From: Elysia marginata | Taxonomy: Eukaryota > Mollusca > Gastropoda > Plakobranchidae | Assembly: GCA_019649035.1 (NCBI GenBank) | Contig: BMAT01013750.1 | Location: 86,596-150,595, forward strand | Direction: 5' to 3' | DNA length: 64,000 bases | Part shown: positions 4,034 to 51,900 of the stretch, in pieces | Numbering within the stretch: position 1 is the stretch's first letter | Layout: the number at the start of each line of letters is the position of its first letter | Made by a program: the position numbers and the translations under genes | Notes under the pieces: model-generated | Told to the model about the DNA's origin: nothing | What the model saw: the letters and a program-made list of their open reading frames with translations, nothing else | Database searches by the model: none

Positions 4034-7000
4034 GTAAGTTGAGATACCAACAATTTCAAACACATATTTGTTTAGATTTTATTTAATTAACAGGAGGGAA
4101 TATAATATGTATTACAGGTACAGATCCGCTTCTGGATTACATCTAGATTCTAGATCTACATCTAAACATACGAACACTGGCTTCGTTCAAGGACTTAGAA
4201 CTGTCTTCTAGAATCTAGACCTCGATCTACACCATGGTTTTAGTGCGAGAGAGGTTGAAGATGTAATATCTAAATCTAGTATAGATAGATCTATGCCATG
4301 GCATGCCCAACAATTCGACCAAGGCCTACTGAATGGATTCATATAGATTAGCTTACAAGTGAAGTTTATTACCCTCCAGACAAGTTCTACATCTAGATCT
4401 AGATATAGATCTAGATCAGTATGATTATGAATCTAATTAAATGTTTCCATTGAATGATTAATGTAGATCTAGGTCTGATTAACATACGAAATAAGGTAGC
4501 CTTGTAGAATAGATCTATTTTAGAAATTAGAGATAAAAAATGTTATCTGGATGTAGGTCTAGAAGATTCTTATAAAATTTAAAATTGAGAAGCTAAATTA
4601 TGTAGCCTAGATCTAGATCTAATCTCTCAGGCTCCAATTCTATTCGCAGTTCAATACATTACCTGTTGAAAAAAAAAAGGGGGGGGGGGAGAGAGATAAG
4701 GTGCTTTGTTTGGTTTTGCTATGCCCAGAGGCTAGACCAACAATACAAATTTGAATCTTAATTAGCAGGAGCCTTTCAGTTCCAGCAAAAGATAACAAAT
4801 CTTCCCCTTCCATTTCAGTATCCCTTAAACTTAGAATTAACATTAATTAACAATGTAACTGTATGTCCTTTATGTTCGGTAAATCATCCCCTTCATTTCA
4901 GCTGTCTTTCCAGCAGGCCAATCCAAGGATTATCCTGTAAGACGAAGTACTTGATCTAGTCAGGCCTATTATACTAATTAGATTCTACTTAAATACTAAA
5001 TTAGATTGACTTAGACCTTGATGTTGTCGTTGCTTTTTCAATTCACTATTCAATTGCTAATGCTGTCAATTTATTGAATGATTCATTGTTTTACTTTTTG
5101 GTGTCCTAAGTTTTTGTTTTATTTTCAATGAAAAATGAAATGATCCTTTTTTAACTTCATCTGTAAATGGAATGTTGGTCAGTTTCATCAATCTGATAAA
5201 CTTTACCCAGGCCGTCGTTATATTTTTTCATGCTAGTGATAAATAAAATAGTATCAATAACGTTATGAAGCAATATTTTTTAAATCTATTATAGCCTTCA
5301 TATCCCCTGGGTAGCCTCAGAATCAGATGGGATGTAAGTGTTGCCGATCATAATTAGGTTTAGCTGTTCACTTCGGTTGCCTTGATTGTTTCCAACAGCT
5401 CCAGGGTCAAAATTATGTCCAATTGTACCCAACTACTTCAATCAAAACCCTTAAAGCTTACGTGCCTTGTCGTCACTCTGTACAAAGTGTTATTGCGACG
5501 TAGACTTACTGATTTCGGCTAACCCAGTTTAGTGAGTGTGTTGCTGGTCGACAGCCAAAATCTTGACATGACCTGAACCTGTGTTAAACTTAACAGTGAA
5601 CAGTCAACACGCTGCCTCTCGTGCAGCCCAGCTTAGTTTTACCGGGACCATAACGAAGAGGGTAATGCGAGACGAGAGAGAGTTTGCACCAGCCGAGGCC
5701 TACTCGGTCGTGATATGCAGGGTGGAAGAATCAAGGGAGGCGACCCCTTCGCCTGTCTCATGCCCTCGCTGCCCTAGCCTGGCGCAGCGCTGGCGCAGAC
5801 ACCGAGCGTAGCCCTCGCCGACGCTCGATTATTTTTGATTGGACGACGATGACCTCAGAGTTTTCTCGCATAGGGTCACCCTAAATTTGTTACAGGGATG
5901 AATGAGGGAAAGGGGGCGGCAGTACAAACTCATGAACGAGGTCTGTTTAGCAAAGTTCTGTAGTAGATCATAAATTATTAATGTATCCTCGGTGTCGCGA
6001 GGAAAATGCGAGTGCTCTGTGAATTGCGGGACCAGTTTCTATTGTTTACACTTCTACCAACTCATTTCGTTTTTTAATTGATTTGAACGTTTTCGTATAT
6101 TCATTTTTTCTGAAGATACAGTTTACAAAAAAAAATATAAAAAATCTCCCACATCTTTCTTATTAGTTTTTGTTTCATTAGGAAAAAAATGTTATAATTC
6201 GGTTACTGTTAGCATGTTGCTATAATTATTTTCCGGTGGATCGTTGTATCTGCGGCTTTAACTTACTTTAAAGATTTTTTTATTGTGAAATTAGTCACCG
6301 TCACTGATTTGGAATTCTGCTTCAAACAAACTCAGGAGTTGTGTATAAGTTTACCAAACAGCCGATGCGAGTAACACGCGAAGTGTGAGCGCTCTCTTCA
6401 GAGTCCCATAGCACAATCCGGCCACTGTTTTCAAACATGACCATGGACTACCAACATCCGTACATGTACCCCGGTTACTACTGCCCTCCATATCAGAGCT
6501 CTGGGTTCAGTTTCCCAACACGGCAAACCGACCATCTCCAACAGCATCAGCAACATCAGCAGCATCAACAACAACAGCAACAGCCGGCGCACAGCAACAT
6601 GTACAATAGTAGAACATATCCGAGTAGCTCTAGCGCAAGCATAAGCCAACGCTTGCCTTACCACCACCTCTCTCAATATCCTTACCATCAATATCAACCT
6701 CAACAACGACAACAGCAACATCCGATATCGACGCCAGGCTCTTCGTTTCACGATCACGAAAGTAATCGACTTTCGCAGCATCAGCAGCCCCACCATCACC
6801 ATCAGCACTACCGAAAACCGCAACACCAAGGGCAATCATCGTACTCAACATCGGTGTGTAAGGAACTAGAATTTGAGGAGTATCCAGATAGTTTCTTGCG
6901 GCAAACTTTAAAATTACCTCTAAATTATAAATCGGCTTCCAACTTATTTGCTCCATGTTTGAAATGCTCAAATGCAAATAAACAATTAAGACCAAAGAGC

Positions 7001-10000
7001 ATGTTACTTCATTTTTGCCGTAACGTATTGGCTTCCGACCAAGCGTTGTGTCTGCATGTCACCTAAATAATAGCGAAAGTTGGTTGCGCCTTCCGACAGG
7101 TGGAAGTATGCGTCATGTATTAGATTTATGAGATGCGTAATCTGACTTTTGCTCGCTTTATTATGTTTTAGTTGAGTCGTTCACAACTCTAAAAATTTGT
7201 ATATTTTACATGAAATTCGCCGTAAGTTCCGCTTTCACACAATATTTTAGCATATTAGCAACTTACAAATGGCATTTTTCCCTTGTAAAATTCATCTTGA
7301 TTATTGTAGCTAAATTGTGTAAAGGTGTTAAAATTTACCATCGGACGCTAGGCTGCTTTAAGTCTCGTCACTTGTCCTTTCAATCACAGCATCTGCTTTA
7401 TCATTACAAATAAAAGATTCCACGTCGTCTTGGTTTCGTTGATTCATTAATTAGTGTTGGTGATCATCTCCATTTTCTTCTTAATTTACTATCATGTGGA
7501 TAACACGTTTGAAAAAAAAATTAAGAACAAATATGGCCTCTATTTAACAATTAAATATTTTCGGCTGGCGCCAGGCGGAAATTTCTATACATACGGCTAT
7601 GCAATGAGTTAAGTAATTCTTATCTTGAGATGCATGCTTGGAGATTTTGTCTTGAATGCTACACAAAATGCGACCTCGAGAAAAAATTCCTTAAATTTTT
7701 AGGTTTGGGTTAGTCGTTGGTTACTTTTTCCCTTTTTCCTTGAAGCAGAAGTTTTGGGAATGGTTTCCGCGTTAGGTATTGGAAGGCGCCGCTGTGCAAG
7801 ATTATGGAATATACGCAATTGTTATGCAAGTTATGTAAGCTTTTAATCCTTTCATACATAGCTTTTATATAAATAGTGGTCTATTAGTATCCCATGATTT
7901 GATAATGTTCTTACCTAAAGAGCTCAAGGGGTAGATCTTTGCAAAAAATAATTTTGTTCTAATTTACGAGTGAATCTTATCTACCCCATCTCGTTCTTAC
8001 TTTCTCTCCTGTTCCTCCAGCAATACCTGCCCAACTTTCTCGTGTCTCCCGGCACCGGTCTGACCCCGACCACCATCGCCAGCATAGAACAGTCCTTGCT
8101 GGAACTCAACAGCCAGCAACAGCAGCACCAGCAGCAGTCCTCTCAGAACGGTGGCGGTCAGTCTCAGCAGGGCTCGGCGCCGGCCTCCCAGGCTGGCCGG
8201 CGTGACCCCGTGACCCAGAGTGGGTTTGTGCCACCTGTAGTGGACCCTGGTCACAGTGCCGAGGTGAGTCAGGACAGCATGGACTGCTCCTCTGACTACT
8301 CGGACGACTGGGAGCCCAAGAAGAAGCGCGGCCGCCTGTCTGGCGCGGCAGCCAGCGAAGCCAGCAGTTCCACAAACCCAGATCTGATTGTCACCTCCAT
8401 GGGCACCATCAACGCCGCACCACAGAGAAAGTACACACGACGTAACAAAGATGAGAAGGTGAGTTCAAAGAAGGTCCGGTCAGTTAGGGTTAGTTGTAAA
8501 CTCTATGTTCTCTGGTCTTCCTGCTTCGCTTTCCTTGTGGATCAGACTACCTTCTTGTTTCTCTTTATGTCTTGCTCTATCAGCCTCTCTGCAGATTTTT
8601 GTTTTCTTTTATTATCTTAATATTTTTACGATCAATCTCTCCCTTTCCTTCTGTATATGAAGAAGACATTAGTCCCCACCCCACCCATCTGTGCACGTGC
8701 TTTCTCTCTCTCATCTCTTGGGTTCCATCTCAACTGGTTATGCTTTAAAAAACTAATGACAAGAACTGGACTCTTTTATAAGTTCTCTTTTCATAATTGC
8801 CCAATAAGTGCTTTTTCAGCTCCTTCCCAGACTTTAATTTTTTTTTCCACTAGGGAATGTGAGTTTTTGGATAAAAAAGATCAACGCTAAATTTTTTCGG
8901 CCGGAAAAAAAAACTGTAGGTGTGATGCTTAAAATGAGAACTTGGTAGCCAATCATTATTTTAATAGTTGAAACCTTATAGTCTCATAGTCATACGAATC
9001 ACATTTTCATCTCAATGTATTTATGTGGTATCGAATGAATGGTATCGAGGGAAGTATGGAAAGTAAAACATAAAAGAAAAGGGAACAAATCCTATGGCAG
9101 GAGCGAGAGTTACAATTGGGCCTACGCTGGATTGTGTCAAACTTTATCTGGAATGTTTGCCAATGATCTGTGCCACACGGTAGCCAATCAGTCCGTGACA
9201 TTGGCCTAATGGTCACGTCTGCCCACTTACCAGTTAACTGTCACCATACCACTGGCAACTTTTGCTCACTTTCGTTGTTAGTATACACACTTCTCATTCT
9301 CTTGCGCCAATATCTGGTGTTAGGTTGCATGCGCAATGACATAAGCAATATTTATTTCGATCACTCGCTCTGAGCGATTTCGTGCCTGTGGGCTTGCCCA
9401 ATATGACCCCATTTAGCTCTTGTCTCTCTTCAATTTAAAGTACACACCAAAACAACAAAGTAGGTATGTATAATCGAAAGTCGCATTTTTCTATTGCCCC
9501 CCCCTCCCCAGCGATTCTCTTCACTGTTGCTGTCCCCTGTTTCACCTGTGCGCGATTATTGGCTGTCATCTCTGTCGCTAGGTTAATGAGGGTATGCGTC
9601 TGGCTCGCGTCCAGCAATCTCTAGCGGAGCGCACTCCTGCTTGGTTTGGTTGTTGTCGTCTAGATGTAGGTCTTCATCTATCTGGTCGATCTAGATTGAG
9701 CCTGAACTGCTTTCTAATTTAATTTTTTTATATAGAGAGAAAGAAGAAAGGGCAAGCGTTGGGGCTGCCGAGCACCTGGTACGACTGTATCTGGCATAGT
9801 GCCATCTTAGTTGGGGAGGCAAGGGGTCCTGTCATTAACATTAAATAATAATCCGGCACGATTCATAGAAGTAAAGGGGATGTTTATCTTTCTTTTTAAT
9901 TGAGATAAAAGGCTAATTGCGAAGGTTTACCTATTAATTATTATGGATAGGTGATGCAGATCGCCCCATACCTAGCCTTGTGTAGCTGTAGATGTGGCCA

Positions 10001-13000
10001 ATTCGCTGGGTCTAAGATTCTGCCTTTGTCTTTGGTGTCAGTCCAGCCCTCTGTGTGAGCAACTGGCAGTGATAGAAAAAAATAACCGAAGGTGCCTTCC
10101 ATCCACTCACATTTTCTCTATTTTCTCTAGGACATGATTTAAATGCGAATAAACAAAAAACCCTTTCCCAGGCATCAAGAGATCGAATTCATTATTCGAC
10201 TCCCAACATTTCAATTCCTTTCTTCTCACTTCTGTGGCGTCGTGGTCTAGTGGTAGACGCTCGGCTTTCATATCGAGAGGTCCAGGGTTCGAGCCCTGCA
10301 TCGACAGGTCGAAGTTAAGCCCTTGAGAAAGGCTATTTACATACATTTCTCCGCCTCACACATGCGTTAAAGGAGTGTACCCGACTATAGGCTGTGAATG
10401 ATCTTGTCTGTATACTAGAGGGGTGCGCTTTAAAATGCTCACCCTCTGTGAGTTCAGAAGGTGATTTGGTTGGCTATGGCCTGTAGGGAACCCATCTAAA
10501 GCGCAAAGATGATAGAGCATTTAAATGGCATTTACGCGCTATTTAAAAATTCTCTTTACTCTTACTTTACCTCGTCATCAGATCAATTAGGTCTGAAAAG
10601 AGAAATCATACGATTGGAAGTGAATAGTCGGACAATTTTTAATAAATAACCAATTCATTTTTGGCTTAAATCGCTATGTCTTATGGGCTACGTGCACTGG
10701 AGTGCTCCCTCGCACCTGTTCAATCTTTGCAGCTTGCACCGGTTCACCTTGGTCTCATAGGAAGCAGCATTTAAGCCGAAGGGTGCGAATTATGACCATT
10801 ATAAATAGTAAGAGGTTCAACTGCGACTAGACTTAATTACAGGTATTTTTTTTTTGCCTATCAATTTATTAACGTTTTTTTTCTTCTATCAAACGACATA
10901 TTCTGACAGAATTTTGCCAATCCAGTTCTAAGAGGCAAACAAGTTGTTTTAGCCACGTTAAATAAAAGACTATAGAAATCAGTTTTCATAAATTTTGCCT
11001 CTAGGATTTATCAACCTATGAGTTTCCGGTGTTAAAAACACATTATAAACATCCTTTGTGCTAATCGTTCAAGACTCCTTGAAAGTTTGAGACCTTAATT
11101 AATTCTATTTCTTATTATTTAGAATAAAACAGAAAGTTTGTCGATGCCCTGTTGGGCTTGAATCGGCAATGACAGCCAACGTGGTTTATGATGCGAGAGA
11201 AAGTGGTCGTTTTGAGCCTCCCTAAAGCCTGCTCTAATCTTGAAACCGAAAATTAAATCATGCATGGCTGAATCCACCTTTTACTTCAAACCCTCTCGTG
11301 ACCTTATCTGGAGAGTTGGACATACATTTTAGTCGATTGTAGTACACGCTCCTTTCTGCTTGTTCTTTTGTGATAAGTACATTTTAGTACTTGTTTGATG
11401 GTAATTCTGAGCTTTTATCTAGAGGACTTTCACTTCTCTTTAAATGCAGTGTCACAGCCATTCAGTCCTTGTGGTTATCGCTCTTTTGTCAATGACCATG
11501 ACTCATGGGTTTGGTATTCTCTACAGATCTAAAATGGGTTATGTCCTTTTCATTTTTTTTCTTTGTACATCCCTTACCCCTTTTTCTTGATGGAAAAATA
11601 TTGTCAATGCAGTGTCTATCATGCAAATATTTATACTATTAGGCATTACTAATCTTTCCCCCCAGTATAGTTTTTATAAAAATACTGAATAAAAAACAAA
11701 AGTTTTTAAAACAAGATAACTCGAGTGATCAGGTGAAGTTTGTATTATTACCGGACCCTTACGTTGGCGTTATTATTAATTATGGAAATGCCATTTTGGG
11801 GGGAAGCTTAATTAACTCATTCACCACTTTTACAACTGGGATTTAGCGTGTTCACGACGGGAAAGTATAAAAACTAAGATGAAACGTAATTGCTCCCGTG
11901 AGAGTATGTTGTATTTCAAACTTATCGTGACTGTTTCAAGTACATCATGTAAATCTTCTTTCCGGAGTGGAAAGTGAGTTGTGAATGACATGTACTAAAC
12001 TGACCCTGCAAGCTATCAGGCTGAGTCCAACCCCAAACTCCAAGACGTTGTTGCCTACTAAACTTGATAGAGGCCGAAGTCCCAGGGAACACTATACACA
12101 ACTGTATACAGTAGCTTGCTAAAATTTTAAGACGAGCTTTAAGGAGGCGCTGTCCGTTTTGTTTCTTAATTTTTTTTTCATAAACATTGTTAAGTCAGTT
12201 TATGTATAAACTCAAACGGACAAACTATCTCTGAAAATATCAAGACTTTTTCCACTGATGCAGCTCGAGATAAGTGCAACAAACTCCAATCAAAGCAACT
12301 TGTTAATGTTAACCTTTTGTTTGCTAGATGAGAAGATGTAAACACCAGCATCCGGGGGAGTCGAGCATGGCAAGCAGCAGGTGGTATCTAACATGTACTG
12401 ACATTAGAACTTCTACAAGTCACAAATCTAAGATCCTACGGCTCGAGCAAAATTCTTTCATAAATTCGCAATTTTATCGCTCAAAGCGTCTCTAAATGAT
12501 TAACCATGACATACCAAGTACAGCGTCGAGACTAGATTTTGATCTTATTGCTCAGGAGGGGGGCTGAAATTTGGCTAAATGTTTGTTGACTCGATATATT
12601 CGGCTTTATTTCCCCCGAGAGGAAAGGGAAATTTCCGCGTAAGGAATGTCGAGTCTTTTGAGTGCTGGATTACAGCCAGATGGTGGTGCCACGTGGCAAG
12701 ACTTGTTCGTGGTTAGTTTTGAAAACTAGATATTGACATGAATGAAGCTGGTTAATCGAAATTGTCCTGATACCGACTTGTACCAATGTAACGTCCTCGG
12801 AGACGTCTTCAACACCTTCTGGCTGTTTTGTTTAACATAACAAAGAAACAAAAAAAAAGTTGTTCTTCTAAAACATCATGACTGCACGAAAAAAGTACGT
12901 ATTGTTTTCGGTGCTGTTAAAACCGCCTTTTTGCATCGAGTAAAATAAGTTTGGGGGTTTCCAGTCTTGCTGGTCTGTTGTTTATTATGTGGTTGTGGAT

Positions 13001-16000
13001 GAATTTGGGTGATCCTTCTACAGTTTGTCATTTTTGGGTCGAACCTTATAAGGTTTTATAAGGTTTCACTTCTTCCTCATTGTCGAAGTACTCCAAAGAC
13101 AAGCACTTAAGACAAAAGTTAGAGAAGTCACCATTGTTATGTTTTATTCAGGGGTGATGGGAAAGATTTGTCGTACTTGTGACTTTGTCGGCGTTGTGCA
13201 ATGAACGTGGGGTCCACATAGACAAGGCATTGTTTTGTCAGTCAGAACAAGAGACATGATGCATCTAATGATGCTTTGATAGCTGTGAGGCGTGGTTTAC
13301 AACAATGACTCACCAACGACCAGCCACGTCCTTAGCTGAGCAGCCTGATTCTTGTTTTCCTTCCTATATACACTAAAACACTAAAAAAGTATTTATATCG
13401 CATGTAACCTCAAGTATTAATATCCCGTGTAGCCTTTTCTTTGATTTTCATTTTAGGAGTGCGTGGGTTTGATTTTTTTTTTAAATAAGCGGATTTGATA
13501 TAAATCAACGAGACTCTCTTGATATTTTTAAATGTTTGTTTTTTAATTTTTGCTCTAGTTTCAGCGTGACCCACAGGCTAAAGTTTATAAGTCAGTTAGC
13601 ATTGAGACAATAAAAAAAAAGATTAAAAGAAAACGCATAACCTTTAGTGACTTTAGATCTTATGGGACAGTGGGGAAGTATAGAGCGAGCGAAAGATTGT
13701 GCAAAATATAGTCATAGGCAGAGAAACTAGGAGTTACACATTGAATAGACAAATTAAGTCAATACTAAAAAATTAGCAACTGCAACACAGGAAGGTGAAC
13801 TATTATTATTGAAATTGTTTTTATTGGAAGAAATATTTTCAGAGGGTGTAACTTACTAGAGTCTCGTGTGATGATAGGTGGTGTTGTAGACAAGACAAGT
13901 GTTGAAGTCGGGAGGGTGAGAGGATACATGGTCTCTCTAGAGAATAGGAGAGCGCAGAGTCGGCGCCTTTACTCCTTCTTTAAGGTCACTTCTGTTTCTA
14001 CTTGGGCCCTATCAAAGGTTTTCGCCCTTTGTACTGTTTCCTTATTTTGTTCGTCTTCAGCTACGACTGACATTTTTTGTGGCATAGGCTACTGTCAAGT
14101 TGAACACGATTTTCTTTCGTTTCTTACTAACAACAATGGTATTGTGAAGCACTTGTGTTCACATTGATTCGACTTGAAGAAATTTTTAACTTGATCGTAT
14201 TGCTCACAACGCAGCCCTTGATCGTTTGAATCATTCAATTAATTCATGTTGGGTACTGATAATCAAATTGCACCTTTCACCAGGGAGAAATATGTATTCT
14301 TAACTCACAGCTGTTCTGTAAGAACGTTTAACTAACTTACTTATCAGTTTCTTGTATAAAAGAACTATATTAACCATCGTGAAAATGTTTGTGGTTTTCT
14401 ATCATTCTTTTTTATTTTAACTGTATGAGATCGCATTGAAACAAATAAGTTTTATCAAAGAATCAATTTGTCACTATTATCCTCATTTCTCGCGCGATCC
14501 ACCTCACAACATTTTAATTCTCCAGAATTATCGTTATCAAAGTACGTGTTAACCGTTTCAACCAAACTAATGCGCTGCTGGTTGGGGCAATTACCTAGCA
14601 TCATTGGCTTTTCTTCTGTTACTGTGTTTAATCCACAGTCAACAGTTTGTTGCTCTCCGTGGGGTTTGACTTTACAAAGATGTCGGTCGTTTGTGTAACA
14701 CTGAATTAACATTAAAGGCAATCGATACGTTCTCGCTAGGCTGATGGATTTGTGGCACAAGCAGTTCTATGTCATTTGTTGATGCAAAACCTTAATTTGA
14801 GCCACATATGGGTAGCATTCTGTTTCTTTTCCCTTTAAAATGTTTTCTTTTGTTTCAGCCCTCCACTGGTTGTTTAAAAACTTATAAAACACTTATAAAT
14901 TAAGGCACGAGATAATTATACTAAAGATAGTTCAAGACGAAAAAATTCCCAGTATTACTTCAAGTAAAAATCCTACAACACAAAGGACATAATGTTTATG
15001 GTTTAGATTAAACACATGTGAGGAATGGGATATTTCAGAATGTAGAAATATGTAATTAACGAAGTGCTTTATTGTCTTTTTTGTTCTTTAACTAAGATAA
15101 AAATAAAAACCATCAAGGAAAAAACCAATAAAATTTAGCGATTTTCCTGAAATGTTAGTTTTATCTTATTATATAATTACTGTTAACAGATTTAAGCTTT
15201 TTCCCAAATCTTTCGTCAAAACCCAGGGTTCAAATTTCCCAGTGTTGTTGATGTGAAGGCAAACGTTTCACTACTTAGTTACCAACCTCCTTTAATGCTC
15301 ACCTGTACTTATATATTCGAGTAATAATGACTTTTTAGAGAAATCAACTGCACATAGATCCGTTTACGATTCTTCACTCAACACAGCGGTGAAGCTATTT
15401 ATTTTTTAAGGAACTCTCGTATTGCTATAACTTGGATTGTAAGGTCCGGTCGCCAAATTCATGGAGACTCGCAGCTGCTTAGATTCGGATTTGAAGATGG
15501 CCCTTTCATGAAATCATTACTAAAAATCACAATAAACCAATTTTTAAAACAAGGTGGTAGTCTTGGTTCTTTGGTGTTTGGTTGCATGACCTGGTCTTTG
15601 TGACCTGCCCGACCAAGGGTCACGTCGTGAGCATACGACTGTGACGTTGATGATGACATAGGCCAGGAATGGCTGGCGTTCCCTTCAACTTGTTCCGCCA
15701 CTCTGCGGTCTGGTTCTGCTTGACGCATCTTATGACTCACTCCTCTGTCACTCTGTGGCTTGAACCAGTCTTACTATGCCTATACTGGGCTATTGAATCT
15801 ACTTAGTAGTCACACAACGGGTTAGCTATTTTAGCTGTGAGTCATATGCGTCGTCCTCCGCGATCCATGTAGCGTAGGCTCTACGATATAACAGATTTAC
15901 CATTCATACAGATTAAATTTGTACTAAACAGATTTTTGTCAAACTATCAGAAAGTACCGATATTCTGATTTTCATTTTAAAATACAGGTTTTGGTTTCTT

Positions 16001-19000
16001 CTGCGCATTACTCTTCATATTCAGTGTGTTTTTTTTTTAAATCGTTGCAATTTTTTTAGTAATCCGAAAGTTCATGTTATTAATACTAAAGTACCGTACA
16101 GAATTATTTTACACTAGTTATGGTAAATACGGCAACACACGTATTAAAACTATACATCGTTCTTCTCTTTTTAATAGCAATTTAATTTTGGATGGCCGCC
16201 CTTCTTAAAAAAATGGATCGGTAGTGCTCTTACTCCATATTTTGACAAGCTTCAGAATTTATGAGTACTGGTACATAGTCATGCATATTTTTTTTTAAAT
16301 GCCTGACTGCAATTTTTTATCTTAATCATACTGATTTTCCATGTTGGAGAGTAGCAGGTCTGCAATAAGCTATGAGGACTTCAATCCACACTGAGTTCTT
16401 ATAGTATATATGTAGTCATTTCAATCTCTCGATGCTTTTTAGCTTTTTACTACATAAGGACAATTTAAGTTTGTATACATGTGCAAAAGAAAAAGAAAAA
16501 AAATTATATAAGCAGCTACATGTTGGAAGAGAACTGACTATGATCGACTGTAGTTTTTTTATTCGTTAGTTTTAACTTACACATGCATAACTATATTAGA
16601 CTTTGACTCGGCACAAGTGGTAGTTAAGATAGGTACAGCTTCGCCTCAACGTTTATCGTAATGTTAGGACGATATGACATACTAGTTCATGCACTGTTAA
16701 GTTTAAAAAAATGCTATCAACGTACTGAAGAATATGTGGTTTCAGAAAATGGTATGATTGTCATGTGGTTGTTATCTGTTATGTGTCTTCTGACATGCCT
16801 GACGCTAACCGCAAGATTCCATGATAACAACAATGTACTCGGCTGAAGCGGCGGGGTGTATGTTTGCGCAAGTGCGAAAGTGATGCCTCGATCTGTTAGG
16901 CTTACTATTCTATCTGTTTGCTTTGTTGACGCCAAAGCCACGTTCACCGGAACATCAACCGAGAGTGAGAGCCCGACAAAAGTCATGTCTTTTCAGACAA
17001 CACCCCAAAAATAAAGTATTTTACAACTACTGTTTACTTTTTCATATGATTTGATATACGAACCTTATTACTACTGGTGCAACCTTATTTGTTTTTTAAG
17101 GTTGACTGTCTTCTGCTGAACTTGTTAATTCCTCTTTTTCAAACATCAAAATCGTCTTCTAGATCTACACTGGCCCGGCCACCAACAGTTTAATAATTTT
17201 ACGCAAAAAATGTAGCCAGATCTAGCTTATAGTGGGATCATTCAACAACTCTAGCAACCCCCGACTTTGTGGACCTAGGTCGTGTCATCCAACAGCCCAC
17301 CTGTTGAATAGTAGTGAAGGGACTAGCTTAGTTTTAGCACACTAACGAGCGTATAAAATGACGAACACCTGCACCCATAATGATTGTAACCATTCTGCTA
17401 ATGATGAAGTTAAAACATAGTAAATAACAGCAGCAATGTTTACGGACAAAACCGGTAAAGTTTGCAGGCATTTGTAACCCCTGCTTAACCAGATCCGATT
17501 CCACCGGATTTTAAATGTCACCTCTTTATGAGCAATGCAACGTGGAGCTTTTCGCCCCATAAGTATGATATATGACTCCTCATTAAAGAGTACAGTATAT
17601 AAAAGCAGCTTGGGAATAGTGCGGGACAAAAATCTACACAACGGGTACTCACCGAAAATTTAAAATTTTGTAAATTGATTCGCCCACCCCTTGTTATTTT
17701 TATTCTTTACTTTTGTGAGTAGCCCTTTCTCGCCTTACCTCCTTGGTCTTTACACATATTATATGATTGTATCAACCCGTTGCCTGTCTGCGAGATATTT
17801 TTAAGTTGTGTACATTTATCCTGTGTTAAATGGCAGATGATTACGGACCTAGGCTATTCGCATACCGTTGTGATTTGTCATCGCCGCAGCACGAGTCCAC
17901 AGGCACAGGGTCTGCTAGTATAGGTCTAGTCTGGTGCGAAATTCCTCAGGTCAAGCTAGGCTTGCACTGTACCCGAATCACCAAACCGCTGCATTTAGGA
18001 AAGTCCGAGATGCAACCGTCGAAAGAGGGTTATCCGGATTAGTGCCCTGCCCTTATTTTTTTCTTTTCTTGATAATACGCCTTGGACTTTAAGCGAACGC
18101 TAGGGTAAAGGGGCGTGGGAAGGAGAAGGGGGTCGTGGGGTCGGTGTTCTTAGACGGGTCATGTGATACGCCACGGTCGGGTGGGTGGGAACACCAAGTT
18201 GTACTTTCAGTAGGGATCGCGTCAGTTTCAACCAGGATTTAAGATCCTCAGAACGCCAAGGTCAGGCCTGGAATTACCGTAACACTTGCGAGTGGATGAG
18301 TCAGACTGATGACTCACCTGCTTGCCGACAGATTCCCGCTAAAACATGTAATACAAATTATATGGTGGTTGTTACGCTTAGCAGACAATTGTTTATAGTT
18401 CATAAACCTTCAAGGACGTGTATTCGTTGTGTTTAATTTCTAGATACAATGCTTCNNNNNNNNNNNNNNNNNNNNNNNNNNNNNNNNNNNNNNNNNNNNN
18501 NTATTGAACAAAAACTCTTGTACATAGTTGTTGAAAAAAACAACTTTGCATGGATTTATTTTATTGTTCTTTTATGATTTTTTTTTACATATGTTTCTTT
18601 TTGAATAAGTATACGTTACAAATAAAACTAACCTGTATGTAAGTTTTAAATACTCATCACATCCATATCCCGTAATTTTTTTGCTCACAGTTGCCACCAG
18701 AAGAGGAAGAGAGACGCAGAGTACGGCGGGAGAGAAACAAACTGGCAGCTGCAAAATGTCGTCAACGTCGTGTGGATCATACTAATGAGCTGGTTGAGGT
18801 AATGCATGTTAAAGAAACTGCCACATTTTAAAAATTTCTATTACTTTCCGGTTTCAATTATTTGATCAGACATTTATTTCAGTGGCAACATTGACAATAA
18901 TCTTTTTCCAAATGTGATTATATTACTGTGTTGATTCGGGTCGTCTTGTATTTGGTATTGCAGATAACAAATTAAATGTTTACAAGGATATTTATCAAAC

Positions 19001-19989
19001 AATCAACATCCGTAGGGATAGGATAAAAATGACACATAGTTTTTATTTCCTTTCAGTGTAGAAATTTATTTTAGTAATATGAACCAAATTCATTCTTTAG
19101 ATATTAAATGGCTGTGGCTCCAATCTATTTCTATGAGAAAGCGTTAGGAAAATCTTTGTATAAGGTACACATTTTATTGATGTACAGGCTGTGGTAGGGA
19201 ATGCAGTCAGTTGTAGTCCTCTTCACACTATCATTATTGTTATAATTATAATTTATATCCTTCATACAGGAAACAGAGGAGCTGGAGAGAGTGCAGTCTG
19301 AACTAGAGCAAGAAATAGCAAACCTTCAACAAGAAAAGGACCAGCTGGAGTTTATTCTTCAAGCCCACCAGCCTGTCTGCAAGGTTGCACACCGACATCT
19401 TGCTGTAGCAGCTGCTCAGGTAAAGGTCAAAGTTGAAAGGCCATCATTGTCTCCCCCACCACCGAGGAATGGAGTTCCACAGAATCTGAGCATTGCGTCT
19501 TCCTCCCACAGCACATTGATCACCACTACAAGTGCCAGTACCACACACCTTATCCCAGAACAACAGCCCTACCAGCCGTCCCCTCCATCCTTCTCAGCTC
19601 CGTCGCCTCAAGCTGTGGCAGGGGGACACATAGAATCTCTGGCTGCGTCATCTCGGCCAAATTCCCTCCCTCTCATCAAGCGTAATCGTGCCCGCATGCT
19701 GCAGGCCTCTGCTGATGCAGCAAATGCCACTACAAACTCGGCATCCACTCCAGGCACTGCGACCATCAATACGCCAACCTCTGGTTTATCCATCACGCCT
19801 TCCTCTCTGTTTTGCCCTGGACTGGACAGCATGGTGGATGGCTCTACAGGTCTGACACCTATCACAGGTCTGTCCTGCTCGAGTCAAGTGAGTGGTCTCA
19901 CTGTCCGCACCAACCCTGCAACCAGTGAGGCAGGCAGTGGCACCTCTGGTAGTGATGCAGTTGGTTCTCCCACTCTGATCTCACTCTGA
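3917..19989 (+). CDS. FOS: Fos-family bZIP transcription factor (AP-1 subunit), isoform with first exon 1a; spliced
   Basis: Joined exons 3917-4033, 8021-8458, 18691-18798 and 19270-19989 give a 460-residue protein; every junction is phase 0 with GT/AG ends. The basic region ([19 protein letters not shown]) has the N..AA..C/R DNA-contact signature of AP-1 proteins. Five heptad leucines follow (NEL, EEL, SEL, ANL, DQL), then [13 protein letters not shown], which corresponds to the Fos LEFILAAHRPACK. The C-terminus SPTLISL matches the SPTLLAL end of vertebrate Fos. Known role of the family: a nuclear protein that pairs with Jun and binds TGA(G/C)TCA, usually as an immediate-early gene. The 108-nt basic-region exon and the intron after LVE match the vertebrate FOS layout as I recall it. 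The exon 1a start is the only upstream ATG in frame with a good donor. Confidence 0.93.
4130..4635. repeat. AGATCT/TCTAGA-rich cryptically simple sequence in Fos intron 1
   Basis: Short runs built on TAGATC recur, for example around 4142, 4200, 4275, 4392, 4465, 4510 and 4612, separated by unrelated bases. This looks like slippage-scrambled simple sequence rather than a clean microsatellite. Confidence 0.6.
5480..5880. other. CpG-rich island-like stretch in Fos intron 1
   Basis: This stretch has many CG dinucleotides (for example around 5771-5826) in an otherwise AT-rich intron, roughly 600 bases before exon 1b. It could be part of the exon 1b promoter. The 76-codon open frame here has no recognisable protein features. 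Confidence 0.35.
6344..6349 (+). promoter_or_regulatory. TATA-like box for Fos exon 1b
   Basis: TATAAG lies 93 bases before the exon 1b ATG. A start about 30 bases later would leave a 5' UTR of roughly 65 nt with no intervening ATG. Confidence 0.4.
6437..6853 (+). CDS. FOS: Fos exon 1b (alternative first coding exon, Gln/His-rich)
   Basis: ATG at 6437 opens a frame of 139 codons up to TCG|GTGTGTAAGG at 6853. The encoded protein begins [15 protein letters not shown] and then runs through HQQ repeats and Tyr/Pro/His-rich sequence. The frame continues 70 codons past the donor, but the low-complexity Gln/His/Ser composition stops exactly at the donor and the downstream part looks random. That supports 6853 as the exon end. 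The donor is weaker than that of exon 1a (GTGTGT). An unspliced 209-residue product is the alternative reading. Confidence 0.72.
6437..19989 (+). CDS. FOS: Fos-family bZIP factor, isoform with first exon 1b; spliced
   Basis: Joining exon 1b (6437-6853) to the shared exons 8021-8458, 18691-18798 and 19270-19989 gives a 560-residue protein, again phase 0 throughout. This isoform differs from the other only in its N-terminus, which here is 139 residues rich in Tyr, Pro, Gln and His. A TATA-like box lies about 90 bases before the ATG, which supports an independent promoter. Drosophila kayak is known to use several alternative first exons, so the arrangement fits the family. The first-exon sequence itself has no homologue I recognise. 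Confidence 0.75.
8021..8458 (+). CDS. FOS: Fos exon 2 (shared)
   Basis: A polypyrimidine tract and CCTCCAG precede the exon, and GAG AAG|GTGAGTTC follows it. It encodes 146 residues, beginning [20 protein letters not shown], then SIEQSLLEL, a Gln-rich stretch, an acidic [10 protein letters not shown] segment and a basic KKKRGR. It ends [11 protein letters not shown], just before the bZIP exon. LTPTT plus an amphipathic helix is typical of invertebrate Fos/kayak N-terminal activation regions. The exon is markedly GC-richer than its surroundings. Confidence 0.9.
10232..10571 (+). mobile_element. tRNA-derived SINE (family 1) in Fos intron 2
   Basis: The head has a pol III A box (TGGTCTAGTGGTAGACGC) and B box (GGTTCGAGCCC) in tRNA spacing. 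A body of about 250 bases follows and ends in a tail (GCGCTATTTAAAAATTCTC) similar to the LINE 3' end at 51210. It is not a functional tRNA: the acceptor arms do not pair and the body continues. Confidence 0.75.
11499..15844 (+). promoter_or_regulatory. Scattered AP-1 sites in Fos intron 2
   Basis: Perfect TGA(G/C)TCA sites occur at 11499-11505, 13306-13312, 15733-15739 and 15838-15844. With the pairs at 3727/3784 and 18297/18310 that makes eight in about 15 kb. About two would be expected by chance in sequence of even base composition. Confidence 0.35.
18297..18316 (+). promoter_or_regulatory. Paired AP-1 sites in Fos intron 2
   Basis: TGAGTCA (18297-18303) and TGACTCA (18310-18316) are separated by six bases. 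Two perfect AP-1 sites this close suggest an intronic enhancer, about 140 bases before the assembly gap. Confidence 0.45.
18456..18501. other. Assembly gap
   Basis: 46 consecutive N bases within Fos intron 2. Flanking sequence is intronic, and the reading of exon 3 is unaffected. Confidence 0.99.
18691..18798 (+). CDS. FOS: Fos exon 3 (basic DNA-binding region)
   Basis: TTGCTCACAG precedes the exon and GAG|GTAATG follows. The 108 nt encode [20 protein letters not shown], then [16 protein letters not shown]: the acidic lead-in, basic region and first zipper leucine. The conserved redox-sensitive Cys of KCR is present. Vertebrate FOS family genes also have a 108-nt exon encoding the same segment (LSPEEEEKRR...), so the size, phase and position all agree. 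Confidence 0.96.
19270..19989 (+). CDS. FOS: Fos exon 4 (leucine zipper and C-terminal region)
   Basis: The acceptor is TTCATACAG at 19269 and the stop TGA is at 19987-19989. The exon encodes 239 residues: the zipper ([20 protein letters not shown] and onward), the HQPVCK motif, then a long Ser/Thr/Pro-rich region with the SPPPP and PSPPSF stretches typical of MAPK-targeted activation domains. It ends VGSPTLISL. In vertebrates the terminal Ser/Thr-rich tail is phosphorylated and controls stability; the matching end suggests the same here (inference). Confidence 0.95.
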   Translation, partial: ETEELERVQSELEQEIANLQQEKDQLEFILQAHQPVCKVAHRHLAVAAAQVKVKVERPSLSPPPPRNGVPQNLSIASSSHSTLITTTSASTTHLIPEQQPYQPSPPSFSAPSPQAVAGGHIESLAASSRPNSLPLIKRNRARMLQASADAANATTNSASTPGTATINTPTSGLSITPSSLFCPGLDSMVDGSTGLTPITGLSCSSQVSGLTVRTNPATSEAGSGTSGSDAVGSPTLISL

Positions 19990-29579: not shown

Positions 29580-30440
29580 AGTTCCGACTGCCACAGAGAT
29601 GCGGTGATTCTATCAACTCTCTTTAAGTTCAGATTGCCACAGAGATGCGGTGATTCTATCAACTCTCTTTAGGTTCAGACTCTCAGAGAGATGCAATGAT
29701 TCTATCAGCTCTCTATAAGTTCAGACTGCCACAGAGATGGGATGATTCTGCCAGCAGCAAAGAGTTAAAACTGCTAGAGTGTAGTGCTGTTTCTATCGGT
29801 AGTGGCACTACTAAGAGTTAAGACTGCTAGAGTGTTGCAATGTTTCTATCAGCAGCAGCTCCAACTAAGAGTAAATAAGACTACTAGATGATGCGATGTT
29901 TCTATTAGCAGCAGCCCCTACTAAGAGTAGAGGTTAAACTGCTAAAGGGTGCGATGTTTCTATCAGCAGCAGCCCCAACTAGGGGCCTAAGAGTAGAGTG
30001 TTGCGATGTTTCCATCAGCAACAGCTCCTCTAAGAGTAAAGGTAAGATTGCTAGATGATGCGATGTTTCTATCAGCAGCAGCCCCAAATAGGAGTCTTAG
30101 AGTAGAGTGTTGCGATGTTTCCATCAGCAACAGCTCCTCTAAGAGTAAAGCTAAGACTGCTAGATGATGCGATGTTTCTATCAGCAGCAGCCCCAAATAG
30201 GAGTCTAAGAGTAGAGTGTTGCGATGTTTCCATCAGCAACAGCTCCTCTAAGAGTAAAGGTAAGACTGCTAGATGATGCGATGTTTCTATCAGCAGCAGC
30301 CCCAAATAGGAGCCTAAGAGTAGAGTGTTGCGATGTTTCCATCAGCAACAGCTCCTTTAAGAGTAGAGATAAGACTGCTAGATTATGCGATGTTTCTATC
30401 AGCAGCAGCCCCACTAAGAGTTAAAACTGCCAGGGTGTCT
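29580..30440. repeat. Tandem repeat array, 46-bp units passing into a 109-bp higher-order repeat
   Basis: At 29586, 29632, 29678 and 29724 a GA.TGCCACAGAGATG unit repeats every 46 bases. From about 29760 the unit becomes GCGATGTTT(C/T)(T/C)ATCAGCA at 54-55 bases. From 29922 to 30358 two alternating variants (CAGCAGCAGCCCC and CAGCAACAGCTCC) form a 109-bp period: TAAGAGTA recurs at 29922, 30031, 30140, 30249 and 30358. Open frames on both strands are a by-product of the repeat. Confidence 0.9.
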
Positions 30441-30479
30441 GTGCTGTTTTTATCACAAACTGCCCCTCTACAAGATCAG

Positions 30480-33619: not shown

Positions 33620-34400
33620 TTCAGTAGTGTTTGCATTGCCCGCCTTTTTGATTGAGCACTTTTTAGAAAAAGGGAGCTCATGCAAAATGCGTTCAACACT
33701 AGTGTGCAATGCACAGAACTCCCAAAGAAGTTCATCTCGACATATGCCAAATTTCATGTACCTGCCATGCATAGAAGAGTTTTTCCTTTACAAGGGATGG
33801 AAACTTACTTTTGGGATGGACCTCATAGACATCATCATCAGATCTTCAAAATGAAATTGAGAGACTAAAGCTGGGTTTCTACATGGACTCATGTTGTTGG
33901 TTTTTTCCTGAAATCCTTTGTCATAAAAATACAACAAACTTTAAAATCCAATTTGAGACTTTTAAAGGAAAAACTGCGAAAAAAATATTAATAAAATAAT
34001 TAAGAGAAAATAACTTAATTTTCTGATTTTTATTGTATTTCTTTGCACAATCAACGGCTGAATAAAGCAACAATTATACTCTTTACAGATAAATATACAA
34101 GCCCAAGGTACTGTAAGCAAGTAGAGGAAAAAATTAAATTCGATGAGGAATGAAGGCGCAGAAAGACCATTTGAAGTAAAGGCAAAAACATGGAGGACCA
34201 ACATGATCAGATTGATATGCAGACAATAATATTGTACAAGATACAAAAACCTTTACAATTTATAAATCATGAATTACTGATGTGCTCTTTTCTGCTTTGT
34301 CAACTTCCATCCAGCCCAGTTATAGAGATTGTCTCTCATTGTTTTCCCCACTGTATATTTATAAGCTTGATGTCAGGTGACAAGGACTGTTTACGAGTTC
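33620..34400. other. Intergenic sequence, nothing recognised
   Basis: AT-rich DNA between the mariner remnant and the 40-bp repeat. Short open frames on both strands overlap each other and show no domain or codon bias. Confidence 0.45.
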
Positions 34401-34404
34401 ATTG

Positions 34405-34720
34405 TTTTTAATGATAAAGAAAGATGAAGTTGATGATTTCATAGATCTTAATGATAAAGAAAGACAGAGTTGATGATTTCATTGATCTTTGTCAGATGAT
34501 TTCATTGCTCTTTATGATAAAGAAAGACAAATTTGATGATTTCATTGATCTTTATGACAAAGAAAGACAAATTTGATGTTTTCATTGATCTTTATGACAA
34601 AGAAAGACAAAGTTGATGATATCATTGATCTTTATGACAAAAAAAAGACAAAGTTGATGATTTCATTTATCTTTACAACAAAGAAATACAAGCTAATGAA
34701 TTCATTGATTTTTCATCCTA
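34405..34720. repeat. 40-bp tandem repeat
   Basis: The unit TTTATGACAAAGAAAGACAA plus GTTGATGATTTCATTGATC recurs with a 40-base step (ATGA(T/C)AAAG at 34411, 34451, 34514, 34554, 34594 and 34634). One step is enlarged by 23 bases, and a diverged copy lies near 34675. The period is not a multiple of three, so the short MISLIF-type frames are not coding. Confidence 0.9.
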
Positions 34721-42900: not shown

Positions 42901-45900
42901 TTAAAAAAAAGCAGTATCTGACTTTTAGGCACATAATGATAAACCAGTGACTACTTACCTTTGAGGAATTGTGCGTCATGGTATGGACAACAATGACGCC
43001 AGCTGATCCTGCTGTAAACAGCAAGCGGCAGTCGGGAACCGACTCAACACACGTCACCTGTCATAGAATCCATTGTTATGAAATAAAAATACTCAGCAAT
43101 GAAGCTTAATTATTATAGAAAAAAAATAAAAAGGAAGATAACATTTTAAAGGGTTCAATTTACTATCTTACAATGATCTTGCAATGAAGCAATGCCTGGA
43201 ATTTGAGTTTAAGTATATTATCTAACAAAAAACTTTTTTATCTTACTTTTACTCTCCAAAAACACAACAAATTTTTATGTTTCTTTAAAGCACAGTTTTG
43301 CAGTCGAGAATAGGATTAAAATCTGCAGTGTTTGAATTGACAACTTTTCTCCAATTTCTTTCGACTGCAACGTGTTTTCTCTAGGGCCATTGTAATACTC
43401 TGTCCACTAAATTTGATTGAACAGATACTGAATTCATAATAATTTTTACTAAAAAGGCAACCATGAGTGGAAGCATTTTAATTCAGACAAGAAACAAAAA
43501 CTTTTATAGTCTAGGCAGAATATTCTTTTAATTTTCCTTTCTACCAGCTTGCTTTTATCTGAACGATTTTAAGATTTTACTTGATAATTAAAAAGTGCAT
43601 AACATCTTCCTAACTTACAGTGCCAAAGAAGGGCTGAGGAAGGAAGTTGATAAGAGGCTTGTCATGGTAACTGCGGATGCGTATCAGGTTGTCATGGTAA
43701 CCCCAAGTGACCACTCCAGCCCACATAACATCTGTAGATTTCACTGCCATGTCTGGAAATGAAAAACATCTAAAATGCATGAAAGAAATAAGGGGCACAA
43801 AATCAAATTTTTATCAAAAGGATGATTATGTAACTCTATTGCCTGTAATAAAAATCTAATAGCCATTCATTCACATTAACAGTATCACTTTATTCTCATA
43901 CTCCAGTTGAAACACAAACATGAATATTTCCTTTGTTTCTCAAGTAATAATTTTCACCACCAAAGGCATTGCGATTCCTGAATGATGTTTCTGCTATTTC
44001 CATTAAACACTATGTGTTCTTTACATACAGCTAGTACATTTGAAAATAAGATGTTGAAAAAGCGGTGCCCTATACACACAATGGTAGGGGAAAAGGGCAT
44101 TTCAGAAGATGGCAGCAAACTTATTTTACAGAGAGTCATGACAACACAAGCAATAATTCTTATAATAGCCAATGCATAGAAACTTGGATATTGGTCTAGA
44201 AATTTTATCTTCTGAGTTTAAAACTTTTCTTAAGGCAAGCTCATCTGTCTGCTTGCCATGCAGCAGCAACATGTTTGCGTTACTCTCACCCCCAGACTCA
44301 ACTCTCTGCTTGCCATGCAGCAGCAAGGTGTTTGTGTTACTCTCAAACCCAGACTCACCTCTCTGTTTGCCATGCAGCAGCAAGGTGTTTGTGTTACTCT
44401 CAAACCCAGACTCACCTCTCTGCTTGCCATGCAGCAGCAAGGTCTTTGTGTTACTCTCAAACCCAGACTCAACTCTCTACTTGCCATGGAGCAGCATGTT
44501 AGCGTTACTCTCAACCCCAGACTCACCTATCTGCTTGCCATGCAGCAGCAACATGTTAGCGTTACTCTCAACCCCAGACTCACCTCTCTGCTTGCCATGC
44601 AGCAGCAGCATGTTAGCGTTACACCCAGACTCACCTCTCTGCTTGCCATGCAGCAGCAGCATGTTAGCGTTACTCTCAACCCCAGACTCACCTCTCTGCT
44701 TGCCATGCAGCAGCAACATGTTAGCGTTACTCTCAACCCCAAACACCTGGCCAGTAGGCAGGGGCACCAGGCGAGTAATCACAGCAGGGTTTCTAGACGA
44801 GGTAGAAACAGACGATGCTGCGCCTGCTGCTGATGGTGATGTCATCTTGGCCAGGTCAGAGTTCTGCATCAGGTCCACACACACAGGAGGGGGGAGATCA
44901 GGAGAGCCCACATAGAGGCCCCACTGGAGGCCAGACACATTCGGTACTGGCCGTCTCTAGAAAAATACAAGAGGCCAAATTTAGAATATTATTATTTATG
45001 TATTTCAAATATCTTTTTAAATCTAAGAGTTCCAGCCCAAACACTAGTTGAAATTGAGATAAAAACAGAGCTTTAGGCAAAAATGAACTTTGTTTGAAAT
45101 GAAAGCAATCCGAGAACAATGCACTAAACCGATATGAATTACAAGAAAAACAATATCTTTCTTCCCAATGTCATAGCATTTTAAAGCCCACGCTATTAAT
45201 AATTAGGAACATGTCTCTTAAAATCTTGTACATCAATTTGCTTCTCACCACATATGCAGAAGATTTAATTCTCTCATCTCTTTGCAAAGCAAACTGTATT
45301 TGGTTATGATTGCCATATGGGTGTGGGTTTCGGAACAGTTGTTTTGGAGTCTGTCCGTAAGTTTTGATCATGGTGAGGAGAGCATGACGCTTCACAGGAT
45401 CCTTGATCTGGCTGGCATCCACACCAAAGTAAGTCTTATAGAAACAGAAAATAACAAAAAACTTTGTCAAATGTATAAAAGCTTAAGCTTAAGTTTCCAT
45501 TATAGCATAGTATCTGTAAATGAATACATTATTGTTACACTTACTTTTCACTGAGCTAAGAAGCAAAAGGCTACTCAAACCTTGGCTTTATTAGTGCATA
45601 GTGCCGGCCATGCAAATGTCAGGGGGTCAACTTATGTGGTGATAGCTGTTCACAATAAGGTCAGCCCAAACAACTTTTAAGCATTTGTATTGGTCAAGGG
45701 AAAAGTTAATATTAATTGAAATTTGACCTTTCAACCAAACATCATAATCTATAGTCTTGGTTGCACAGTAATGCTTCATTGTAGCATAAAAACAATTTAT
45801 GAATGAAATTAAAAAATGTTCAAAATTGGCAAATATTGAATTGGTTGACCCTGATCACAGCACTTGACCTCCTTATTTACACTGGCCTTGCCTACGGCTG

Positions 45901-48900: not shown

Positions 48901-51900
48901 TTAATTCCAGTCCTCTAAAATTCAACATAAAGATTCTGTTCAACAGGTAAAGAAGAGAATGTTACAAGCTTAAGTACTTGATTACCTGTAGATTCTTTGG
49001 TCGGTTAAGTTCAGTGTTGGGCTATGGTAGTCACGCAGTATGAAAGGAAACACTGGGTACTGCATGAGGTCTGCGTAACTCCTGCCCGCCAGTTTGTTCA
49101 AGTGAATCAGGTAGTCATAGTTGGTGACCTCTCCTTCCAGCCAGGCTTGTTGCACTGTCTGCAGCGTCTCCACAGTGATGACATTGGGCAGTTCTAACTG
49201 ACTGCGTAGGATGTTGTGTAATTCATCTCGATCCTGAAGCCGTGCCAAATTTCAAGAGAGCCATAAGAAATGATTTGGTGTGAAAGCACCTCACAAATAC
49301 TTTAAAACTGACACACAGGGGCTAGTGATATATATTCAAATTTCTTGTCAAAATGAGGAGAGAAAAAACTTATAAAATGTTGACCAAAATTTTAAAGTTG
49401 CCTTCTGACTGAAGTAAAAGTATCTATATCAATTTGACTTTGTGAGTAAAGAAGCATAGAATGAACAGAAATGCGGTTCTTTTTCTAAGGCTGCTTGGTC
49501 TTAAATTTTCTTAAATAAAAAAGAACTTCAGTCGTTCATCTTATTGTAAATATTTCTTCTGAATGTGTTGAATGTTGGAAAAAAGTCTTGATGAAATTTA
49601 TAACGACATGAAGAACAAAAACTGAAACAATACTTTTGAAATTAAACTTTTCATTATTTAAAATAAAAAACCTCATATACTTTTATAATATTTGCCATGA
49701 TTTAACACAGAAACCTAGCAAAATACTATAAATGTACAGTTCCTACACCATTCAAACATGCTATCATTTCTCCTTTTACTAAAGAAATCAAACTTGTCTT
49801 GTGAAGATTTGAAAAATTATCGTCCAGTGTAAAACCTGACATTTTTATCGAAAATTTTAGAGAAAGTAGTCCTCCAACAACTCAAAGTCCATCTAACAAA
49901 TTTTGATCTTACTGATCCCTTTCAATCTGCGTACAGAGAATATCATAACACGGAGACTGCTCTGGTGAAAGTTCAGAACGACCTTCTCCCAGCTGCAGAT
50001 AATGGAAAATCATCAATTCTTGTTCTTTGGATCTTAGTGCTGCTTTCGATACAATCGATCACTTCATTTTATTAGACCGTTTAGCTAAAACATTTGGTAT
50101 TTCAGGAATTGTATTTAAGTGGTTCTAATCATATCTAACCAACAGAACTCAATGTTTTACAATTAATGGAGAAATTTCATCTAAATTTAAGCTCCTTTAT
50201 GGAGTTCCTTAGGGATCAGTGCTTGGGCCTGTACTTTATACCATGTATACGAAACCTGTTAGTTCTATTATCAGGGCTCATGGACTTAGCTATCACATTT
50301 ATGCAGATGATATGCAGATTTATAATTCAGCTCTCCATCTGAAATTTCCTCTCTTGTCATGTCAATGCAATCGTGTGTGAAGGAGATTGGTGCGTGGATG
50401 TTATCAAAAAGCTAAACAATGATAAAACTGAGGTGAGGATGTTTACAAAACATATTGTAAAAACAGGTGTCATGCCAGGTGGTAATTTTGTTGTTGGCAA
50501 TGAAAACATACAGTTTAGTGATAAGGCAAAAAACCTAGGGGTGTATTTTGACTCCATGCTGTCTAACAATGTTGAAATTGGAAATATCTGTAAACAAATG
50601 TATTGTGAAATCTCTAAGATTGGAAAAATGTCATCTTTTCTGGGTAAAACATCCTTGATGTGTCTTGTAACAGCTTTTATATTTTCAAGGCTTGATTATT
50701 GTAATTCTTTACTAGCTAATTTGCCCTCAAAATCTATTCAGAGACTTCAGAGATTTCAGAATAATGCTGCTAGGATGATCCTAAAAAAGAACAAAAGGGA
50801 GCATGTAACACCGCTTCTTGTACATCTACATTGGCTTCCTGTAGACGCTAGGATTAAATTTAAATTAGCTGCACTTTGTCACAGAGTTCTACAAAACAAA
50901 GCACCATTGTACTTGTCATCTATGATTAGCGTTTACAAACCATCCCGCACATTGCGCAATGGCAGTAAAGATTTGTTAGTTGTACCTACAGTGAAAACTA
51001 AGACCTATGGAGAAAAATCATTTTCATATGCAGCTCCTCACATTTGGAACTCGCTTCCTCTGCCCATTCGACAGATAAAGGAGTCGCAGGAGTTCAAGTC
51101 TGCGTTAAAAACGCACCTATTCCAAATGTATCTGTCCTAACTTTATTTTGTTCTGTGAATGTATATTGGAAATATGTCAATGTCATTGTTGTCTAATGCG
51201 CTTTGAGCTTTTTGTAAAAGCGCTATATAAATGTTCTTCTTCATTATTATTATTATTATTAAATGACAAGCTGCAAAAACTTACTTTGGGTGTAAGATGT
51301 ATTCAACATGTAATATCTTTGAAGGGGTTATAACCGAGAGAGGGCAGTAAATTAATTTAAAAGCAAAACAAAAAATTCTCAGAATCTAGTAAAATCTCAC
51401 CTGTGTAGACTCAAAGGCCAGCAAGCATGTGCGTCCACTAATGAGAAAAATCTCCAATCCCAGATCCTGAAGCTGATACCAGCGTTTGTGTAGCTCCCTG
51501 ATGTCTGTGTGAGGCCAGGTGATGGATAACTGATCCAAGTTGCCTAGCAACATCTGAGTGCATTTACCACCTGTGATAGCTCCATCAGCAACAAAGAATA
51601 TACTGACCTCACCTAAGGAGAAATTGAGGTAGTTTAGAATGAGGTTAATTTATTGACTGATGGTAGATGATATGGAGGTCAATAAAAAAAATATCATATG
51701 GGCCCATTTAGTACATTATGAGAATTATGATGAAAAATAAACCAGAAAGCAGAAGGAGTTTACAAGCATTGTAGCTTACAAGCACATTCGATTTACCAGT
51801 ACGGTAAAACCCTGCTTCACCAAAATTGGAAAAATCAAAATAATTGGTTAAAAATTATTTTTGGGCCTAAATGATTTTTTCTTGAATTAATCCTGACTAA

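Follow-up and report, generated by a model that had tools for sequence, protein, structure and literature searches.

A minisatellite with six intact splice donors across the end of a LYST-like exon in Elysia marginata

Repeated sequence can multiply the splice donors (5' splice sites) of an exon. For the human gene IFI6 (6-16, G1P3), Turri, Cuin and Porter described in 1995 a minisatellite that supplies several splice donors (NAR 23:1854, doi 10.1093/nar/23.11.1854); according to a citing paper, splicing there also takes place from two repeat units further downstream, which results in three mRNA species (PMC4526556). A related process is intron gain by tandem duplication, as in a potato RdRp (PMC4974935), in SPOG_01682/SOCG_00815 of fission yeast (PMC3629103) and also in ATP2A1. 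In DOK7 intron 4, two donors 11 nucleotides (nt) apart are frame-shifting and regulated by SRSF1 (PMC5585400). Here, an array of this general sort is described from the gastropod Elysia marginata (contig BMAT01013750.1, positions 86,596 to 150,595; this stretch of 64,000 nt is called the window). A minisatellite of nine units crosses an exon–intron junction of a LYST-like gene, and six of its units carry an intact donor. The kind is already known from IFI6; the LYST-like array adds a fairly clean new example, whose value is mainly that of a natural experiment on how equal donors are chosen.

Architecture of the array and its host exon

Coordinates are positions in the window, and both array and gene read on the minus strand. 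Tandem Repeats Finder places the array at 44240-44741 with a period of 57 base pairs (bp), 9.0 copies, 90% matches and a score of 745, the second highest of the 20 repeats reported. From 44740 to 44237 it resolves into nine tandem units of 57, 57, 51, 57, 54, 57, 57, 57 and 57 bp, a repeat far beyond chance. Every unit carries the final 16 codons of a BEACH-WD40 (LYST-like) exon together with the junction AGAG/GTGAGT (the slash marks the junction) and a few intron bases. The GT is kept in six of the nine units, at 44691, 44634, 44583, 44526, 44415 and 44358. The +1 G is lost in units 5, 8 and 9, which read AG/TTGAGT, AG/TTGAGT and AG/ATGAGC, respectively. All three dead donors (44472, 44301 and 44244) are hit at this one position, by two different substitutions. 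Donors are numbered after their units in the following, and their strengths, like those of acceptors, are approximate values in bits, obtained with a generic position matrix.

44237 to 44740, minus strand: nine-unit 57-bp minisatellite across the exon–intron junction
44684 to 44740, minus strand: unit 1, donor 1 (GT 44691)
44627 to 44683, minus strand: unit 2, donor 2 (GT 44634), 19 residues added in frame
44576 to 44626, minus strand: unit 3, 51 bp with a 6-bp deletion, donor 3 (GT 44583), 36 residues added in frame
44519 to 44575, minus strand: unit 4, donor 4 (GT 44526; TAG/GTGAGT), 55 residues added in frame
44465 to 44518, minus strand: unit 5, 54 bp, donor lost (+1 G to T)
44477 to 44479, minus strand: in-frame TAG inside unit 5 (CAG to TAG)
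44408 to 44464, minus strand: unit 6, donor 6 (GT 44415), product includes the TAG
44351 to 44407, minus strand: unit 7, donor 7 (GT 44358), product includes the TAG
44294 to 44350, minus strand: unit 8, donor lost (+1 G to T)
44237 to 44293, minus strand: unit 9, donor lost (+1 G to A), continues into unique intron
44692 to 44956, minus strand: LYST-like exon ended by donor 1, 265 nt, phase 0 to 1, acceptor of 9.3 bits at 44956, donor of 11.1 bits at 44691
43619 to 43752, minus strand: next exon (WD40 part), acceptor TTTCATTTCCAG/ACATGG of 11.0 bits

The host gene is likely, though not proved to be, LYST. Along the minus strand, consecutive exons have matches to PH_BEACH (8.8e-14), Beach (2.1e-28 and others) and WD40 (3.9e-08), which is the domain order PH-BEACH, BEACH, WD40 expected of this BEACH-WD40 protein. 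The joined BEACH exons match neurobeachin 1mi1 (2.4e-79). The translated exons align well with a fragment of human LYST, which was the only BEACH protein compared at the WD40 end. The exon ended by donor 1 covers the linker after BEACH and the start of the WD40 part. Its join to the exon starting at 43752 is in phase 1 with an open frame, so that the exon end and the phase-1 acceptor just before 43752 are consistent with each other; an earlier inspection of the sequence (the original prediction) had proposed an acceptor at 43753.

As far as sequence tells, the six intact donors are equal competitors and among the best scored in the gene. Donors 1, 2 and 3 reach 11.1 bits and donor 4 reaches 10.6 bits, donors 6 and 7 are identical to donor 1 in all nine bases, and the other donors scored for exons of the gene have at most 10.9 bits. 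The six intact units are predicted to pair with the 5' end of U1 at −10.8 to −10.9 kcal/mol, the three dead ones at −4.1 to −4.9 kcal/mol. Each donor is followed by TCTGGG, and G-runs of this sort are known to help donors in their vicinity. The predicted RNA fold at the donors is nothing unusual (z −0.19), and a special RNA structure was dropped as a candidate. Much of the original prediction stands: about nine copies of a 57-bp unit spanning exon end and junction, a strong donor copied six times where a minisatellite crosses a LYST-like exon–intron junction, the exact positions of all six GTs, and a row of competing, near-identical donors. The distance they cover is 334 bases, as opposed to the 450 bases within which they had been placed.

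Compared with the known systems, the array resembles IFI6 in that minisatellite units supply donors at an exon–intron junction; it has the structure that defines that system, with three of the nine donors lost. It differs in its unit of 57 bp, that of IFI6 reportedly being 12 bp, in an in-frame stop that separates usable from unusable donors, and in that use of its donors is predicted from sequence. With intron gain by tandem duplication it shares a copied segment with a splice signal that changes the exon–intron structure. However, in that process one copy gives the GT and the next gives the AG, whereas this array multiplies donors only, at an intron that already exists. A new intron running from the donor of one copy to an acceptor in the next was not found, the best acceptor inside the array having about −1 bit by sequence score, compared with 9.3 and 11.0 bits for the acceptors of this and the next exon. 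Because no acceptor of usable strength lies within it, the array falls outside this class, and mini-introns between units are unlikely and were rejected for the same reason. As in DOK7 intron 4, nearby donors compete for U1 at one exon; unlike there, the donors occur in six copies, share a single phase and are generated by a repeat. DDX3Y/MSY2 was set aside as a parallel, since the minisatellite there carries the transcription start, not donors (PMC3039753).

Predicted products and choice among the donors

All donors are in phase 1 because every unit length is a multiple of three. In the computed join, splicing from donor 1 leaves an exon of 265 nt, and the resulting protein aligns with human LYST and lacks a repeat insertion. 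The computed products of donors 1, 2, 3 and 4 are in frame, with 0, 19, 36 and 55 extra residues, respectively; the exons ended by donors 2, 3 and 4 measure 322, 373 and 430 nt. Donors 6 and 7 end exons of 541 and 598 nt, both of which carry the in-frame TAG at 44479-44477. This TAG in unit 5, overlooked in the original prediction, is the single interruption of a reading frame that otherwise runs on through the array. Hence, donors 6 and 7 could lead only to decay of the message or to a protein cut short ahead of the WD40 propeller. A coding array read straight through is ruled out by the same TAG together with the lack of a donor in unit 9. The open frame is in itself no evidence of coding, since the period is divisible by three and two plus-strand frames are likewise stop-free across the whole array. 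On the plus strand, an open reading frame (ORF) of 248 codons covers the entire array (44169-44912). An antisense gene at this position was rejected; the ORF is most likely a by-product of a stop-free 57-bp period divisible by three.

Exon definition favours a short exon and disfavours a long one. Among comparable donors, the intron-proximal site tends to win; how it comes to be favoured has been described as unknown (PMC6002489). The stretch protected by U1 is about 35 nt (PMC6002489), so that with a spacing of 57 bp every donor can be occupied at once; both alternative sites are occupied even when one is used (PMC5861446). As five further intact donors of about equal strength follow donor 1, some alternative 5' splice-site use is to be expected. 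Since an outright proximal rule would largely inactivate the gene via the TAG, donor 1 or a mix of donors 1-4 is expected to dominate. Six near-identical, full-strength, in-phase and regularly spaced donors in a natural exon are a ready test of spliceosome choice, because the predictions differ: exon definition leads to donor 1 and the intron-proximal rule to donor 7. Gene models at such exons are ambiguous.

Origin of the array and competing explanations

The array is probably a neutral minisatellite that was seeded across the exon edge and drifts without visible coding constraint, while donor 1 spares the protein. This is the simplest reading because no coding constraint is seen among the units and the window is rich in minisatellites. 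Herein, a 57-bp segment, comprising the last 16 codons, the donor GTGAGT and a few intron bases, would have undergone local tandem duplication and expanded to the nine units that now drift. Splicing at donor 1 would remove the remaining units as intron and leave the protein unaltered, hence the expansion would be tolerated and the array could grow in what functions as intron. Donors 2-4 would place their 19, 36 or 55 residues in frame beside the WD40 propeller, and donors 6-7 would bring in the stop, which leads to a truncated protein or nonsense-mediated decay.

Seven arrays of at least 90 bp make up 3.2% of the window. If a 502-bp array were dropped at random into the gene region, it would touch an exon edge in about 57% of cases, and a randomly placed 57-mer would contain a complete donor in about 3.6%; the exon list behind both figures is a provisional gene model with some uncertain edges. 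A minisatellite seeded across a donor is thus unusual in such a genome, but not astonishing. The left flank of the array reads TTTGGGG, the internal junctions TCTGGGG (TCTGGGT in some units) and the right flank CTTGCC, which suggests that the duplication started across short TTG-type matches. The first unit had been proposed to be the original one. Judged against human LYST, one unit's worth of coding sequence is indeed ancestral. Which copy it is cannot be told, since the final unit in the product aligns with a score of 121 whether donor 1 or donor 2 is used (117 with donor 4).

Units 1-4 differ from each other at 1-3 positions and units 6-8 at 2, with 6-7 differences between these groups and 6-10 between unit 9 and the rest. 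The 18 distinct changes among units comprise 13 non-synonymous, four synonymous and one stop, close to the 68/30/3% expected without constraint. An excess of synonymous change between units, as in a coding repeat under selection, was not found in this test of low power. One stop was observed against 0.55 expected (P of one or none = 0.90), an ordinary outcome under drift. Within the little power of the test, there is no sign of the added units being maintained for their coding content. Some observations nevertheless weigh against a purely neutral history. The +1 G column changed in two ways in three units (P ~0.04, uncorrected for having been noticed; P = 0.13 when G+1 or T+2 are counted together), and this repeated loss could hint at selection against the downstream donors. 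The two indels, of 6 and 3 bases, leave the frame intact, and every unit length is divisible by three, which is a weak sign from two events. The near-identity of units 1-4, at 1-3 differences, could reflect constraint instead of recent expansion.

Frame-keeping indels and four consecutive intact, equal, in-phase donors ahead of the stop would also suit a functional splicing device, in which donors 1-4 would give graded LYST isoforms carrying zero to three additional repeats, each of about 19 residues, and redundancy would protect against the loss of any one donor. The missing coding constraint across units and the intactness of donors 6-7 beyond the stop make this quite unlikely; chance duplication of exon portions would look alike, and the open frame is uninformative. 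That the array buffers or randomises splicing, as the original prediction had it, is possible but unproven, and is not borne out by units without coding constraint, three decayed donors and donors 6-7 that give an in-frame stop. Donors 6-7 are, however, of full strength, and an intron-proximal choice would give them a share of splicing, so that decay caused by the TAG would lower LYST output and copy-number alleles would tune expression. This is unlikely as well: exons of 541-598 nt are disfavoured by exon definition compared with 265 nt, strong use of these donors would cripple the gene, and units 5, 8 and 9, which no longer have the +1 G, point the opposite way. It is very doubtful that a copy-number-variable array acts as a LYST rheostat, with pre-stop donors giving length-graded isoforms and post-stop donors destroying the message; if so, the number of units on either side of the stop would set LYST output per allele. 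An assembly artefact, in which a single copy or a short array was inflated or mis-joined, has an equally small chance. Tandem arrays are error-prone and a gap at 18456-18501 demonstrates that the assembly is not gap-free, but this gap lies about 26 kb from the array and the differences between units are structured (groups 1-4, 5, 6-8 and 9). The neutral minisatellite, in which the extra copies would have no job, remains the preferred explanation.

Other features of the window

On the plus strand, exon-like ORFs of Fos-like appearance lie at 6389-19986, the one that starts at 19252 having a leucine-zipper-like stretch; the pieces tested against Pfam had no significant match. The sole gap in the window consists of 46 N. 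Between LYST exons, reverse-transcriptase-like ORF pieces on the plus strand (49833-51137; RVT_1 with an E value of 0.035, below Pfam's cut-off) are probably a decayed non-LTR (long terminal repeat) element. A large compound minisatellite at 29580-30455, outside the exons examined, has periods of 46, 52 and 109 bp with up to about 90% matches, and together with that at 34398-34713 it illustrates the richness of the window in minisatellites.
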